From a virus: a DNA stretch of 64,000 nucleotides. The position numbers and the translations under genes are program-made. Numbering within the stretch: the stretch's first letter is position 1; each line of letters begins with the position of its first letter. The stretch spans positions 1 through 64,000 of the IMG/VR virus record IMGVR_UViG_3300042881_003464. The stretch is one strand, 5' to 3'. Below the pieces are notes generated by a model that was not told where the DNA came from, did no database searches, and was given only the letters and a program-made list of their open reading frames with translations. This document shows, one piece after another, positions 16,443 to 23,007 of this stretch.

Positions 16443-17273
16443 CTAGTATTCTAAAATTGTACACGATGGGTTGGCGTTTTGCAAGCTGACTCGTGCCATT
16501 TTACAAGCTTCCCATCCCTGTTTAAAAATTGTGGGTTCATAACAAAAAACATTACTGACCCAAACCACACTGTTGGGCTCAAGTGTTGGTGCTGTAAATA
16601 AATCCATGAGTTTGAATTCTACTGGCATACGGTGCCAGACAGGCCAAAAACTCTTGATGTCTTCTGGAACTGTTCTGCTACCCATGACATCACCAGTGAC
16701 TTCAATATGATCAGCTATGTATGGACTGGAGTGTAGTTGCCGGGCAAAATCCAGCTGTCGTTGATTGCAATCGTATACAACAACCTTGTGAAAGTCACCA
16801 TCACGAAACATTCTCATGGTTTTCCAACCGCTGGCTAGACCATACAACACACTACCACTCAATGACCTTGGTTCATAATGTTCGGTATTGTCCAAATAGA
16901 TTAACTTAGAACTGCGTAACACTGTGCGATAGAGATTTTCCAAGATATACAGTTGTTTACTGCCCTGATCATAGGGAGGACGTTGATGCATTTCATAACT
17001 GTAATCTAATGTAAACTCTATTAGATCAGGATCTCCAATCATGTTGTTTTGCACTGTCCAATCCCAATCACGAGATCTAAAGTCAGTGGTTACAAATTCG
17101 CCACTGGCAATGATCACTCCATTTTGATCATTGACTTCTTCTGGGCTTTGTACTGTTACAATGTCGTCGGCCCAGGCAGTGTAACGATTGTTAGCATCAA
17201 ACATCACTTTGGTCTGCGTAAAACGCAGCAGTTTAGGATGCTGATGCCGATCAACTATAAAAACTTTTTTCAT
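16443..17273 (-). CDS. Conserved phage protein, possible methyltransferase-like fold
   Basis: A 276-residue protein from ATG 17273, not recognised with certainty. The segment KVVVYDCNQRQLDFARQLHSSP (about residues 180-200) looks like the strand, acidic residue and helix that hold the SAM ribose in class I methyltransferases, and it follows SVLYGLASGWKTM. However, a clear glycine-rich motif I is not evident. It overlaps the 2-oxoglutarate oxygenase gene by 23 bases and ends 8 bases before uvsX. Confidence 0.5.
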   Translation of the reverse strand: MKKVFIVDRHQHPKLLRFTQTKVMFDANNRYTAWADDIVTVQSPEEVNDQNGVIIASGEFVTTDFRSRDWDWTVQNNMIGDPDLIEFTLDYSYEMHQRPPYDQGSKQLYILENLYRTVLRSSKLIYLDNTEHYEPRSLSGSVLYGLASGWKTMRMFRDGDFHKVVVYDCNQRQLDFARQLHSSPYIADHIEVTGDVMGSRTVPEDIKSFWPVWHRMPVEFKLMDLFTAPTLEPNSVVWVSNVFCYEPTIFKQGWEACKMARVSLQNANPSCTILEY

Positions 17274-17880
17274 AGCTTCTACGAACAATACCAGGTTTGA
17301 GTGGTGCATGTACTATCAAATGCAAACGCCATTCTTGAGATTGATTAACCGCGAAATGCCTACAACTGGTATCAATCACAAAGCCGCGACCCGAGGCAAA
17401 AGGTATGGTGCCATGATCTAAAAACTGCACTCTACAGTTGTCAGGATGGTCAATGGCAAGATTACATTCAAACAGTTGTCGTTGTTTACGATCAACGTGT
17501 GGCAAAATGTAACCATCTGGTGCCAACCACATGAATCTAATGCGCCCGGCAAGAGCTATGATCCAGTGTTGTTCTAAAAATGCCTTGGTTTGCGAACACA
17601 ACTGACCAATATCAGTCCATGCCATTTGGCCTTGGTCACTGCTGGTAGCCGTGGCTGATTCTCCGTACAAGCATAGGCTGTGCCAGCCTTGATTACCATA
17701 ACCCAAAACACTGTCTGTTTCACGATGTTCTACTCTACAATCAAACACCTGTGCAGCTTCTTGTGATATTAAATCACGTGGTATATCAATATCAAGTTCT
17801 AGCCAGGCCAGTCCAGAATTCAAAAGTATCCAGTCATCAGTGGGTCTATAAGGCAAAACTGATTTTATTAGAGGATTCAT
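17251..17880 (-). CDS. Aspartyl/asparaginyl beta-hydroxylase-like 2OG oxygenase
   Basis: A 209-residue protein with the double-stranded beta-helix signature of Fe(II)/2-oxoglutarate oxygenases: GYILPHVDRKQRQLFECNLAI (H128, D130), then GFVIDTSCRHFAVN (H175) and the 2OG-binding R185 in SQEWRLHLIVH. This is the layout of aspartyl/asparaginyl beta-hydroxylases, which hydroxylate protein side chains; relatives hydroxylate free amino acids. It lies between gp32 and UvsX, unlike the usual T4 order. The substrate may be a phage or host protein. Confidence 0.72.
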   Translation of the reverse strand: MNPLIKSVLPYRPTDDWILLNSGLAWLELDIDIPRDLISQEAAQVFDCRVEHRETDSVLGYGNQGWHSLCLYGESATATSSDQGQMAWTDIGQLCSQTKAFLEQHWIIALAGRIRFMWLAPDGYILPHVDRKQRQLFECNLAIDHPDNCRVQFLDHGTIPFASGRGFVIDTSCRHFAVNQSQEWRLHLIVHAPLKPGIVRRSYEKSFYS

Positions 17881-18624: not shown

Positions 18625-19653
18625 TTAGTTAGACTTTTGGCGAGCCCGAATCATGGCCAAGATATCTTCGGCCTTGTTGCCGCCAGCAGCTGGTTTCACC
18701 ACTGGTGCTGTGGCAGCTGGTACGTCGTCTTCGTCGTCAACAGCGGCTGTGACACTACTGGCAACTTTTGTTTGCACACCTCCACCGCCAGAAATTGGTC
18801 CAGAGGTACCACCACCTCCGCGTGCTACTGGAGTATCTTCGTCAACATCAGTGGCACCGCTGGGTGCTGCCATGCCTGCTGGACGGTAGTATTGACCCCA
18901 ACGGTCAGGATCAAATGGCTGTCCATCAACTGATGCTTCGAACATTTCTTTCATGACCTTGAGTTCAACTTCGCCTGGTTTCTTGGGCAGGAAGCTGGCA
19001 AGGTCAAACAAGCCAAACTTTTCAATTGCTTCTGCTTCTTCAGCAGTTAGTGAGCTTTCTTTGCGACTCCACTTTGAAGTGTTGTAGTCTGCGTAACCAC
19101 CCTTTTGTGTCTTGGCAATACGGAAGTCAAGACCGGCTGCATAGTCGGTGGGCATCTCAGTGAGCTCGGTGTCCATGAGTGCTGCCTTGATGATTGTAAA
19201 AATCTGAGGCCCAATGATAAAACGACGGATTGGGTTTTCGGGTGTTTTGTCTTCGCTCAGTGGATTCTCACGCACAAAGCCTTGAAACACATAACTGCGT
19301 TTCTTCCAGTATTTGCGACCCAGTTCTTCAAGACTTTTGTCTTTGAACCAAGGACGTACTTCTGCCAAGATTGGGCAGGCTTCGCCCCACATTTCTACGC
19401 AAGGTACCTGTACATAGGTTTGCTTGCTGTCGGCTTCGCCTTTGATGCCGTTAAATGGCAAGCGGATCATTGCACGCTCTACCCAAAAGAAAGTGTTCTT
19501 TGAGTTGCCATCAGGAAGGAAACGCACCAGTGCGCTGGTTCCTTCTGCTATGTTCCAATGTGGGAAAATTGCGTTGTCGCCACCGCCGGATTGACCGCCT
19601 TTGTTCGACTCTGCGGCTTGAAGTCGTGCGCGGATTTCTGCTAATGAGGCCAT
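18625..19653 (-). CDS. 32: Single-stranded DNA-binding protein gp32
   Basis: A 342-residue gp32-type protein. The N-terminus MASLAEIRARLQA is the self-association segment, followed by the OB-fold core (FPHWNIAEGTSALVRFLPDG, then WKKRSYVFQGFV) and a long flexible C-terminus with poly-Gly and an acidic cluster (DDEDDVP), which in T4 contacts replication and recombination proteins. In T4 gp32 a zinc ion is held by one His and three Cys; here VPCVEMWGEACPIL has only C85 and C93, with Leu96 where the third Cys would be. AAGGAG precedes the ATG. Confidence 0.88.
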   Translation of the reverse strand: MASLAEIRARLQAAESNKGGQSGGGDNAIFPHWNIAEGTSALVRFLPDGNSKNTFFWVERAMIRLPFNGIKGEADSKQTYVQVPCVEMWGEACPILAEVRPWFKDKSLEELGRKYWKKRSYVFQGFVRENPLSEDKTPENPIRRFIIGPQIFTIIKAALMDTELTEMPTDYAAGLDFRIAKTQKGGYADYNTSKWSRKESSLTAEEAEAIEKFGLFDLASFLPKKPGEVELKVMKEMFEASVDGQPFDPDRWGQYYRPAGMAAPSGATDVDEDTPVARGGGGTSGPISGGGGVQTKVASSVTAAVDDEDDVPAATAPVVKPAAGGNKAEDILAMIRARQKSN

Positions 19654-19736
19654 AATGTTTTCTCCTTTAATATGCCTAAGTTTTGCCTAATATGCCTTGC
19701 GGCATGTGCCTATACACTCAATAAAAAAGCGCATAC
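19654..19736 (-). promoter_or_regulatory. gp32 mRNA leader with tetraloop hairpin and repeats
   Basis: The leader between the probable start site (~19736) and the ATG is about 83 bases. Its RNA contains AUGCC-GCAA-GGCAU (19705-19692), a perfect 5-base stem with a GNRA tetraloop, and two copies of GGCATATTA (minus strand; 19696-19688 and 19676-19668), the second adjoining the ribosome binding site. T4 gp32 represses its own translation by binding a structured leader; this element may serve the same purpose. Confidence 0.5.
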
Positions 19737-19754
19737 ACACAGAGTATATGCGCT
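19722..19754 (-). terminator. Rho-independent terminator
   Basis: On the minus strand AGCGCATA (19754-19747) pairs with TATGCGCT (19735-19728) and is followed at once by a run of T (19728-19723). It lies downstream of the gene ending at 19784 and upstream of gp32, and should end the terminase-region transcript. Confidence 0.75.
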
Positions 19755-19772
19755 ATTGCTACTGCGTGTCAA
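19743..19772 (-). promoter_or_regulatory. Sigma70-type promoter of gp32
   Basis: Minus strand TTGACA (19772-19767), 18 bases, TATACT (19748-19743). The expected start is near 19736, inside the loop of the terminator hairpin. RNA begun here contains only the 3' arm of the hairpin. Confidence 0.65.
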
Positions 19773-19783
19773 TGTTATTTAGT

Positions 19784-21199
19784 TCACATTTTGCCTATTA
19801 AACTTTTTAATCTTGCCAATTCTGACTCTTTCATGATACTCACGCCAGTTTCATTGGGGTTTCCCTCAAATGTGGCTAGATTGTCTGCTTCATCCACTGC
19901 GGGCTGTGATGCTTGTTTGTCGTCTGTGGTCTGTAATCTTACCAAAACTTCTCTAATGTCATTGTTACTGGTCATCTGTTCTAGACGCTGCATGATCAAA
20001 GGCTTGGCGTCAGCTTCAGGATCTCTTGATGCTAGATCTCTAAGTTCATCATACAACTGATCATCACCAAGCACACCGTCAAGTTGTGATATCACAGGCT
20101 CAGCGTCTGCTCCCACGGGTATAGTGGGTTGTGATAGTAGATCCACTAATTGTTGTTTGGCTTCAGGATTATCTGGTGTGTGCCAAATACCTTCGGCAAC
20201 GTTGGCTATCCAGGTTTCAAAGATTTCAGCTTCACGTGGTATTGATTCCTGTTGCTGGAGTGATACCAACAAAGGCAGTGCTTGTTCAATACGTTGGTCA
20301 AGAGTTTGTTCAATAAACAGTTGACGAACTTCTTCCACAAGCTTTTCTTCGGGCTTGATTTCCATTGGTTGCCAGTTTTCAAAGTAGTTGGCATAGCCCC
20401 TATGACTTTGTAGGCTTTTTAAATTTTGACGCAGAGTGGTATAGTAAGTGTTGCCCTGTTCAGCTAACGCACCTGCTTGACCTTCTAGAATGCGTCCTTG
20501 ATTGGCCTTGCGAAATCTTGATAGGATTGATAGGCTTTCAACAATACCAGCGATATGTACGCCACGAGGATCATAAGGACGGCCACCTTGACGCACATGC
20601 TCTAGCATGGCTCTACCCCCGCCAAGATTGCGGAATGGCAGTTTGAATCTTTCTCCGTCGGCAGTTTCAATAAACAGACTTTCTACATAACGATATCTTG
20701 CATCGTTTTCACCAAGAGTTCTGTTGTGTTTGATTACCAATCTTGCCTGTGTGGCTTCGCCCATGTAACTGACCTTGCGTGTGCCATAATAACTTTCAAA
20801 CAGGCCCTCTTTCACAGTTGATAAATTGGTGAGTGCAAACTTCAGCCTATTGATGTTTTGTGGAGTAAAGTTCATGAAATTTTTACTGGCAAACTTCTTT
20901 AGGTGTCTAAGGAACTGAAACCACTCTTCTTTATCAGCGTCCTCCATACCACGTCCCAGATTATCGCCAAAATACAGATTTAACACATTGTCGCTGTCAA
21001 TAAGAATTTCCGCTGTGCCGTAGTCTTTGCCAGATGAGCTGGTCCAATCAAACACAAACAGTTTGCCTTCGCCGATGTCCACTTCACCAGTCTTGGGATC
21101 AACTGGATTTTTACCTGTTTTAGGATCTAAAACTTCGGGATCAAGTCCGCGACTGGTCAACAAATTGTACAGATCTACAGAAATATTGGATGCGCTCAT
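19784..21199 (-). CDS. Conserved T4-like phage protein, unknown
   Basis: A 471-residue protein I do not recognise by function. Residues 1-60 contain the repeated tract DPKTGKNPVDPKTGEVD and LFVFDWTSSSGKDYGTAEILID, then a helical region (KEEWFQFLRHLKKFASKNFMNFTP) and a beta-rich middle (ARLVIKHNRTLGENDARYRYVESLFIE, GERFKLPFRNLGGGRAMLEHV). The last 200 residues are acidic and helical. It is last in the packaging/virion transcript, after the terminase, and is closed by a terminator. A virion or packaging-related role is possible but not shown. Confidence 0.6.
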   Translation of the reverse strand: MSASNISVDLYNLLTSRGLDPEVLDPKTGKNPVDPKTGEVDIGEGKLFVFDWTSSSGKDYGTAEILIDSDNVLNLYFGDNLGRGMEDADKEEWFQFLRHLKKFASKNFMNFTPQNINRLKFALTNLSTVKEGLFESYYGTRKVSYMGEATQARLVIKHNRTLGENDARYRYVESLFIETADGERFKLPFRNLGGGRAMLEHVRQGGRPYDPRGVHIAGIVESLSILSRFRKANQGRILEGQAGALAEQGNTYYTTLRQNLKSLQSHRGYANYFENWQPMEIKPEEKLVEEVRQLFIEQTLDQRIEQALPLLVSLQQQESIPREAEIFETWIANVAEGIWHTPDNPEAKQQLVDLLSQPTIPVGADAEPVISQLDGVLGDDQLYDELRDLASRDPEADAKPLIMQRLEQMTSNNDIREVLVRLQTTDDKQASQPAVDEADNLATFEGNPNETGVSIMKESELARLKSLIGKM

Positions 21200-21209
21200 A
21201 GTCTATTAT

Positions 21210-22775
21210 TTAGCGGGCCAAGCTAATGAAGGGCATGGGTTCAATCACTACATCACCATGGTCGCGTACATGCTGATCTAGCTCGCTATGATAGGTCTGC
21301 AAAATCTGCAACATGCGCACCACTAAAATAGTGGCCATGATCAAGTCATCATGTTCGCCCACTTTGGCACAGTATGTGTTGCCCGAAGCCACAAAGTTTT
21401 TGAATTCGCTAACCAAGGGCTTGCTGTTGATTTTCATACGCCCAGATTCTATTAGATTTTTCAACTTTGCACAGGCCGCTAGTTTGCTTTTATTGGTGGT
21501 GTTAAAGCCCTTGCGCGATCGCCGCTGTCCTGGGCTGTTGGTGTCACTTAGAAAATAACCTGATATCTTGTCTTCTCCCCACTCATTGATAGATATCAAT
21601 GCTGCTTCACCAATGGTATTGTTTTCCACACTGTAATATATGTTCTGTGGGTCTTTTACAACGTCATAAAGTTCTTCAATAATACCAGCCATGATACGGA
21701 TCTGTCCGGGTATGTCTGTTTGATTGTGACGCCATTCTGCTACTTGTATTGTGGTGTTGGCTTCAAACACTTGTATTGCCGCTGGATCTCCGCCAGTGCC
21801 CAGACTGGGATCAAGGCCCACGCAATATATCTTGTTGGGATCTATGTTTTTGTACCAACGCACTTGCCCAGACTTACGAATGGGCTCCAGGCCTTCAAGA
21901 TCCAATAACTTGATCGAGGATATTAGCGTTTCATCGTTGATGATGAATTCGCATTCCATTTCACGACGAAATCGTTCTTCGCCTAGCGCAGCTCTTTGTT
22001 GTGCTGCCCAGGTTTCGTCACGGTCAGGATGCTCTTGCCAGCGAGATCTAAAGGCCTTGAATCCGTTGATACCAATGGGAGTAGGATTCCCAAATGAGTC
22101 CTCGCACTTGTTGGCACCTTTCCAAATTTCTGCAAATTGATCTTCATCTGAGTTAGGTGTGCTTGTTATAATTGCTTTACCACCTGTGGCCAGTGTGGGT
22201 GCAATAGAGGTCCAAAATTCTCTAGCTATAGTTGGACGTACAAACGCAAACTCATCAGCATACAGCAGTGAAATACTCATACCACGACCAGTGTTTTCTG
22301 TAGTGGTTTGTGATACAATGCGGCTACCATTTTCAAATTCTATGCTGCCTTTGTTGTAGTTGACAACACCTGCTCTGATATGATCTGGACAGGCTTCATA
22401 ACCAAAACGCACTCGCTGCATGATTTCCTGCGCTCCTAGATACTTGTGAGCTGCTACCAATATGGTGCTGTCTGGAATAAACATGGCGTACCAAAGTAGA
22501 TAACCTGCTGCCACTGTGCTTTTGCCAGTCTGTCGAGGCATCATGGAGATGCTAAAGCGATTTTGATGATATGTGTCAATCAAACGCTTTTGATAAGGAA
22601 ACGGATGCAATAGCATGCGTCCCTTGACTGGATGTTGAATAAAGAAAAAATTGTCAAGAAAATAATGAGGGCCGTTGACTTGATCAGCGCATTGGGCGAA
22701 TTCCGTGAGTTCGCCCTGACTGTACATCATGGGCTTGTGTGCTGGTTTTATTAGTACTGATTCTAAAGTGCTCAT
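21210..22775 (-). CDS. 17: Terminase large subunit gp17
   Basis: A 521-residue terminase from ATG 22775. The ATPase half has Walker A PRQTGKST (80-87) and Walker B LLYADEF (170-176), with the coupling segment TSTPN (205-209). The nuclease half has VGLDPSLGTGGD with D322, SVENNTIG and the last acidic pair in GEHDDLIMAT, the RNase H-like metal site. It packages DNA into the prohead and cuts concatemers, with gp16 as small subunit. Length is a little below T4 gp17 (610). The extra nine codons upstream overlap the neighbour and are not used. Confidence 0.92.
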   Translation of the reverse strand: MSTLESVLIKPAHKPMMYSQGELTEFAQCADQVNGPHYFLDNFFFIQHPVKGRMLLHPFPYQKRLIDTYHQNRFSISMMPRQTGKSTVAAGYLLWYAMFIPDSTILVAAHKYLGAQEIMQRVRFGYEACPDHIRAGVVNYNKGSIEFENGSRIVSQTTTENTGRGMSISLLYADEFAFVRPTIAREFWTSIAPTLATGGKAIITSTPNSDEDQFAEIWKGANKCEDSFGNPTPIGINGFKAFRSRWQEHPDRDETWAAQQRAALGEERFRREMECEFIINDETLISSIKLLDLEGLEPIRKSGQVRWYKNIDPNKIYCVGLDPSLGTGGDPAAIQVFEANTTIQVAEWRHNQTDIPGQIRIMAGIIEELYDVVKDPQNIYYSVENNTIGEAALISINEWGEDKISGYFLSDTNSPGQRRSRKGFNTTNKSKLAACAKLKNLIESGRMKINSKPLVSEFKNFVASGNTYCAKVGEHDDLIMATILVVRMLQILQTYHSELDQHVRDHGDVVIEPMPFISLAR

Positions 22776-22779
22776 GCCA

Positions 22780-23007
22780 TTATTTACTAATGGGCTTTTC
22801 ACCGGTTAGATAAGGCAGGCTGAACCATAATTGGAACCATTCAGGAGTGCCTGGTTGGATATTGTGTTTGCGTTGCAGTTCTGCTTTTTCGTTGCCAGTG
22901 ACGCTGATGTTAGATCCTTCAGGTGTATATGCTGTCATACGAGCAGCATTGCCAAAAGGCCTAATACCACTGAGTTGTTGTAGCCGTTCTAGAGTCACTG
23001 GCACCAC
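22780..23007 (-). CDS. Small conserved protein next to terminase
   Basis: A 75-residue protein beginning at GTG 23007 (or a nearby in-frame GTG), overlapping the nuclease gene. The C-terminal part ELQRKHNIQPGTPEWFQLWFSLPYLTGEKP reads like a short conserved helix-loop of phage proteins, usually next to terminase genes. Unknown function. It has no good ribosome binding site, so coupled translation is likely. Confidence 0.55.
   Translation of the reverse strand: MVPVTLERLQQLSGIRPFGNAARMTAYTPEGSNISVTGNEKAELQRKHNIQPGTPEWFQLWFSLPYLTGEKPISK

Follow-up and report, generated by a model that had tools for sequence, protein, structure and literature searches.

How can a gp32-like gene that lies directly behind co-directional virion genes be transcribed on its own account, when the -10 box of its apparent promoter also forms part of a terminator hairpin? 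The question arises in a stretch of 64,000 nucleotides (the window), positions 1 to 64,000 of IMG/VR record IMGVR_UViG_3300042881_003464. The source record is a virus contig of 171,839 bp, a distant kin of the phages PA5oct, 121Q and RaK2, to whose gp32 proteins its own is 44-52% identical. The genes concerned and the ribosome-binding site of gp32 are:

18625-19653, minus strand: gp32-like single-stranded DNA-binding protein, 342 aa (phrog_1192, E 1.7e-63)
19667-19662, minus strand: gp32 ribosome-binding site, AAGGAG
19784-21199, minus strand: gene directly upstream of gp32 and co-directional with it, virion structural protein by a weak match (phrog_13484, E 4.7e-10)
21210-22802, minus strand: terminase large subunit, farther upstream and co-directional (phrog_36964, E 7.6e-114; Terminase_6N/6C)

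The gp32-like protein matches Pfam gp32 slightly below the curated cut-off (E 1.8e-5). A UvsX-like recombinase gene lies downstream of gp32, and an aspartyl/asparaginyl beta-hydroxylase-like gene (17251-17880, minus strand; PF05118, E 1e-14) sits between the two. We found no tRNA near the element upstream of gp32, no match to an Rfam RNA family at the gathering threshold, and no extra copy of the element elsewhere in the 64-kb window.

Sequence analysis of the region between gp32 and its upstream neighbor reveals a promoter and a terminator that share bases:

19767-19772, minus strand: -35 element TTGACA, with TTGA invariant in 44 aligned relatives
19743-19748, minus strand: -10 element TATACT, common to the hairpin 5' arm, from the sequence and the alignment of relatives
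19744-19754, minus strand: terminator hairpin 5' arm, AGCGCATATAC
19743-19739, minus strand: terminator hairpin loop, 5 nt
19728-19738, minus strand: terminator hairpin 3' arm, GTGTATGCGCT, inside which the predicted sigma70 start falls
19723-19727, minus strand: terminator U tract, TTTTT

TTGACA and TATACT match the consensus at 11 of 12 positions across an 18-nt spacer and constitute the top promoter-like site within 12-27 kb. The site has the marks of a sigma70-type promoter, namely TTGACA, a spacer in the range of 16-18 nt, a TATAAT-like hexamer and a conservation separate from that of the hairpin. The hairpin in turn has an 11-bp stem including five G-C pairs, the longest terminator-like stem within the same 12-27 kb, and it forms the stable G+C-containing hairpin with a U tract directly after it that is expected of an intrinsic terminator. 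The segment from 19790 to 19710 has a folding energy of -28.4 kcal/mol; dinucleotide shuffles average -16.8 ± 2.7, and none of 200 reaches the native value (z -4.3). Measured from the -10 element, the sigma70 start is predicted at 19738-19734, 5-9 nt past the hexamer and within the 3' arm; consequently, the local transcript would lack the 5' arm. The overlap of the -10 box with the 5' arm, as claimed in the original prediction, is therefore real, and its coordinates were right to within a few bases: the 5' arm extends to 19744 rather than to 19747, so that the bases shared with the -10 element are 19748-19744.

Within the 172-kb genome this overlap is unique, occurring at 1 of 22 terminator-like sites, and none of five terminator-like sites in 50 kb of T4 has one. 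A survey of about 1.0 Mb of relatives returned 51 promoter/terminator overlaps (30 distinct); the five listed all precede gp32, and the remainder match the gp32 element's own sequence. We can thus reject the nesting of promoters and terminators as a general habit of these phages, given 1/22 in the own genome and 0/5 in T4. A chance overlap of promoter and hairpin is likewise ruled out by this uniqueness and by the conservation and covariation in relatives described below. Outside the window (G000:C1 149503-149450, minus strand), a terminator tail is followed without a gap by the -35 of the neighboring promoter (TTTTTTCTTGACC), which is a simpler means of separating adjacent units. We also note a family of promoters preceding genes at G000:C1 144-170 kb, again outside the window, with a consensus near GGTTGACCA, 17 nt, TATAAT; their -35 ends in C, from which the TTGACA of gp32 differs, and they are possibly phage early promoters.

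Immediately next to this promoter lies one further motif:

19776-19781, minus strand: TAAATA, core of a T4-type late promoter, invariant in the 44 aligned relatives of the window's own class (class A, below); predicted late start about 19770

The motif sits 3 nt upstream of the -35. In this genome TAAATA is about 12-fold denser between genes than within them (0.83/kb intergenic vs 0.07/kb coding), it typically lies about 25 nt before structural genes, and a gp55-like late sigma gene is present (87827-88642; phrog_12791, E 3.8e-62). The genome thus has both TAAATA before late genes and the cognate type of sigma factor, while activity at this particular site is predicted. That TAAATA generally accompanies sigma70 promoters on their upstream side can be rejected, since it is absent from most sigma70-like sites in the genome. 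In T4 late promoters, TATAAATA occupies -13 to -6. Applying this geometry to 19781-19776 places the late RNA start at about 19770, which would include the whole terminator. The predicted 50-nt late RNA folds the terminator hairpin at -17.6 kcal/mol, and RNA from about 19770 would be terminated after about 45 nt. Judged by its sequence, the late promoter is likely a part of the gp32 element.

Three gp32 proteins and two DNA patterns served as queries for relatives and yielded 146 distinct regions, each including 150 nt or more upstream. These regions split into 80 of class A, 49 of class B and 17 of class C; the classes were defined on the first 77 loci, and since the contigs of these loci also supply many of the later ones, the repeat is only partly independent. 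In class A, to which the window belongs, TAAATA lies 32-33 nt before the -10 in 80/80, the -10 is paired in a hairpin in 76/80, a U tract follows in 75/80, and the promoter spacer is 17 nt in 78/80 and 18 nt in 2/80. The exceptions L025, L072 and L077 have a degenerate stem or tail. Class B places TAAATA within the spacer, 13-15 nt before the -10, and still pairs the -10 in 47 of 49 regions, with a U tract in only 4 of the 49. Class C has a separate strong hairpin soon after TAAATA, plus a different promoter-like stretch downstream. Six of these relatives (L054, L068, L146, L244, L249 and L267) have a further promoter-like motif, GTAGNAAACACNGAC...GTGTATAATAA, whose -10 adjoins an inverted repeat; it is possibly a different kind of phage promoter, and in L244 and L267 it stands in tandem with a class A element.

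The association with gp32 is exclusive among exact matches, since two element patterns, searched in 2.9 million viral contigs, gave 36 hits (21 + 15), all of them before gp32. Eight cultured relatives were inspected individually (PA5oct, 121Q, RaK2, Munch, XaC1, Phosso, Atu_ph07 and Vibrio 2.275). Like the window, they carry a gp32-like gene after a co-directional gene, and promoter-like stretches are found upstream of it in these phages also; none of the eight (0/8) has a -10 in a terminator hairpin on inspection.

Is the shared sequence maintained as promoter, as terminator, or as both? Paired positions were counted in class A only, as MAFFT aligned the hairpin arms of the class B TACAAT group wrongly; for class B we relied on folding and on permuting the arms. 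In the 44 aligned class A regions, both partners of a pair are changed in 7 cells, where shuffling gives 1.5 ± 1.0 (0/500), with relatedness kept in. The covariation extends to stem pairs outside the -10, where C-G gives way to U-A and A-U to G-C, and a U-G wobble pair is retained in 39/44, which suggests that the pairing occurs in RNA rather than in DNA. Native arms also form more stable pairings (-12.95) than arms exchanged at random among relatives (-10.46 ± 0.30, 0/400), and pairing is better with the own partner in class A and in class B alike (0/400 permutations each), results that sequence relatedness inflates, as it does the Fisher result given below. The first T of the -10 is unpaired in 20/44 class A regions, as is the last (20/44), and both are invariant or nearly so. 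Since these Ts are kept where their partners fail to pair, the promoter is constrained independently of the hairpin; the conservation of the outer stem and the U tract outside the promoter shows that the terminator is constrained independently as well. The site upstream of gp32 is therefore a real, conserved composite element, in which TATACT forms part of a covarying 11-bp hairpin ahead of TTTTT.

We regard a compact insulator that sorts transcripts by their start site as the best explanation of this element, and as probably correct. A sigma70-type promoter would drive gp32, with its -10 hexamer doubling as the top of the terminator 5' arm. Polymerase arriving from the virion-gene/terminase operon would make both arms and the U tract and stop near 19723, and polymerase starting at TAAATA, 3 nt ahead of the -35, would do the same. 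Polymerase from the sigma70 promoter would start past the 5' arm, form no terminator and read into gp32, with the gene expressed mainly from this promoter and shielded from late transcription. We infer from the sequences compared where both RNAs start, that termination actually occurs and that the amount of gp32 is affected.

An insulator against read-through predicts terminators confined to loci with co-directional upstream genes. In fact, U tract terminators are found at 70 of the 104 loci whose upstream gene is co-directional and at 0 of the 14 whose upstream gene is divergent (Fisher 9e-7, relatedness uncorrected). Classes A and B alternate about ten times on the gp32 tree, at least five of these changes being forced by well-supported branches, so that the association of the U tract with co-directional genes does not reflect one event; exchange of upstream regions by recombination among these relatives is possible. 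The claim that the segment isolates gp32 from upstream transcription thus survives in part, as something we infer from this comparison. The original prediction had overlooked TAAATA at 19781-19776, whose late RNA would also end at the terminator, and the relatives with TAAATA in the spacer and a -10 hairpin that lacks the U tract. Going by these class B sequences, termination is not the sole function of the hairpin, and insulation alone gives no explanation for a late promoter retained ahead of the terminator.

Three other readings have to be weighed against insulation. The hairpin may primarily be a 5'-terminal structure of the gp32 mRNA, protecting it from decay or offering gp32 a landing site, and serve only secondarily as a terminator in the window's class, a reading that we consider plausible if somewhat short of an even chance. 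The predicted late RNA opens with the hairpin in 29 class B loci (median start +1, median -9.3 kcal/mol), and with another, stronger one in 8 class C loci (start about +3, median -18.4); just 1 of 20 other late promoters of the genome has a hairpin at the predicted RNA 5' end. RNA from the sigma70 promoter would also begin with a hairpin, through re-pairing of the 3' arm (below), and the repeated alternation of the classes fits this reading too. However, the late start sites are predicted, in the window's class about 16 nt of late RNA precede the hairpin, and the conserved U tract that follows it is unneeded for mRNA protection. Lacking the U tract, the class B hairpin has, or had, another role, probably at the 5' end of the late mRNA; a 5' hairpin on the gp32 mRNA may itself be useful, with class A adding termination of upstream and late RNA. 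Outside the window (G000:C1 about 154124-154050, minus strand), the late core TATAAATA of a GroES-like gene (MKLKPLHDRVIV, recognized by eye) is followed immediately by a strong hairpin (-15.3 kcal/mol), a possible second case of a late mRNA with a 5' hairpin.

A late shut-off is compatible with the insulator, and both may hold. Late polymerase at TAAATA would occlude the sigma70 promoter while its own RNA terminates, so that gp32 synthesis stops late and an RNA of about 45 nt is left. The constant placement of TAAATA in all class A regions, its marking of late promoters in a genome with a gp55-like sigma, and the terminator hairpin folded by the predicted late RNA speak for it; the element would, however, insulate without it, and we advance this shut-off as a tentative proposal. 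The inverted repeat could instead be a DNA operator bound by a dimeric repressor over the -10. A dyad over the -10 and the start region is in the classical operator position, and it persists without a U tract in class B. Yet the gap between half-sites runs from about 3 to 8 nt among relatives, where a dimeric repressor would call for a fixed spacing, and together with the conserved U-G wobble and the U tracts of class A this favors RNA pairing, leaving the operator an improbable reading.

Returning to the insulator, its local transcript would lack the terminator 5' arm, in agreement with the original prediction. This RNA is not predicted to be structure-free. Two leader features are relevant here:

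19711-19719, minus strand: segment able to re-pair with the 3' arm in sigma70-started RNA (alternative 5' hairpin), with moderate support from relatives
19692-19705, minus strand: stem-loop in the leader, ATGCC-GCAA-GGCAT, with TAGGCA repeats on either side; its stem covaries among relatives

In sigma70-started RNA, the former 3' arm would re-pair with 19719-19711, and the first paired base falls within 4 nt of the start in 78/80 class A and 48/49 class B relatives. Among relatives, the energies of the alternative hairpin are modestly better than shuffled and better than permuted ones; the leader of the window as a whole folds no better than shuffles (z -0.3). These pairings could make the gp32 leader a three-segment RNA switch decoded by the start site: (I) segment 1, the -10 box, would pair with segment 2 in RNA started upstream or at the late promoter, and (II) in sigma70-started RNA, segment 2 would pair with segment 3. 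One form of the switch, with TAAATA 32-33 nt before the -10 and a U tract, would terminate late RNA; the other, with TAAATA 13-15 nt before the -10 and no U tract, would place a flush 5' hairpin on the late mRNA. Flipping between A and B, a shift of the late promoter by about 18 nt, would then decide late gp32 synthesis. We put this switch forward with some reserve, as a possibility that may well fail. The second leader feature is a candidate RNA operator through which gp32 might regulate its own synthesis, and can be compared with the T4 gene 32 pseudoknot; in the region 19712-19673 (minus strand), the stems of relatives read ATGTC/GACAT, ATCTAA/TTAGAT and ATTTAAG/CTTAAAT.

The closest described arrangements are those of T4 I-TevI, e (lysozyme) and segB and of Aeh1 mobE, in which a promoter lies in the region of a hairpin 5' arm, so that upstream RNA forms the hairpin and local RNA does not; there the ribosome-binding site is masked by the hairpin, and a late or middle promoter serves as the local one (PMC2988022, PMC3014915). 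As with I-TevI and e, the window promoter is placed so that local RNA misses the hairpin 5' arm. Unlike in those cases, the hairpin ends at 19728 and the ribosome-binding site at 19667-19662 is not hidden. The logic is the same, with T4 nesting acting on translation and the nesting in the window predicted to act on termination. T4 gene 32 itself has middle and late promoters and a structured leader for autoregulation; its promoters lie inside segG, and no terminator/promoter overlap is described for it in these two papers (PMC2988022, PMC3014915).

In E. coli, the frd terminator overlaps or abuts the ampC promoter region, and in B. pseudomallei nlpD1-penA a new promoter just upstream of a terminator leads to anti-termination of penA (PMC6045580). 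The local ampC transcript traverses the whole terminator as an attenuator, whereas the predicted window start at 19738-19734 lies beyond the terminator 5' arm. The penA promoter is mutation-born, whereas that of the gp32 element is conserved across many phages. Little beyond ampC and penA was found on promoter/terminator overlap, and in the part of the literature covered no terminator arm is described that contains a conserved -10 box.

In sum, a promoter, a terminator and a late-promoter core can fit into about 50 bp, so arranged that the start site alone would decide which transcripts reach an essential replication gene. The alternation between classes A and B is the most interesting feature of the element. 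Nesting, here probably applied to termination, is conserved and apparently convertible, which makes it directly testable whether phages shut gp32 off from late transcription. As a design, the gp32 element would be a minimal insulated promoter.
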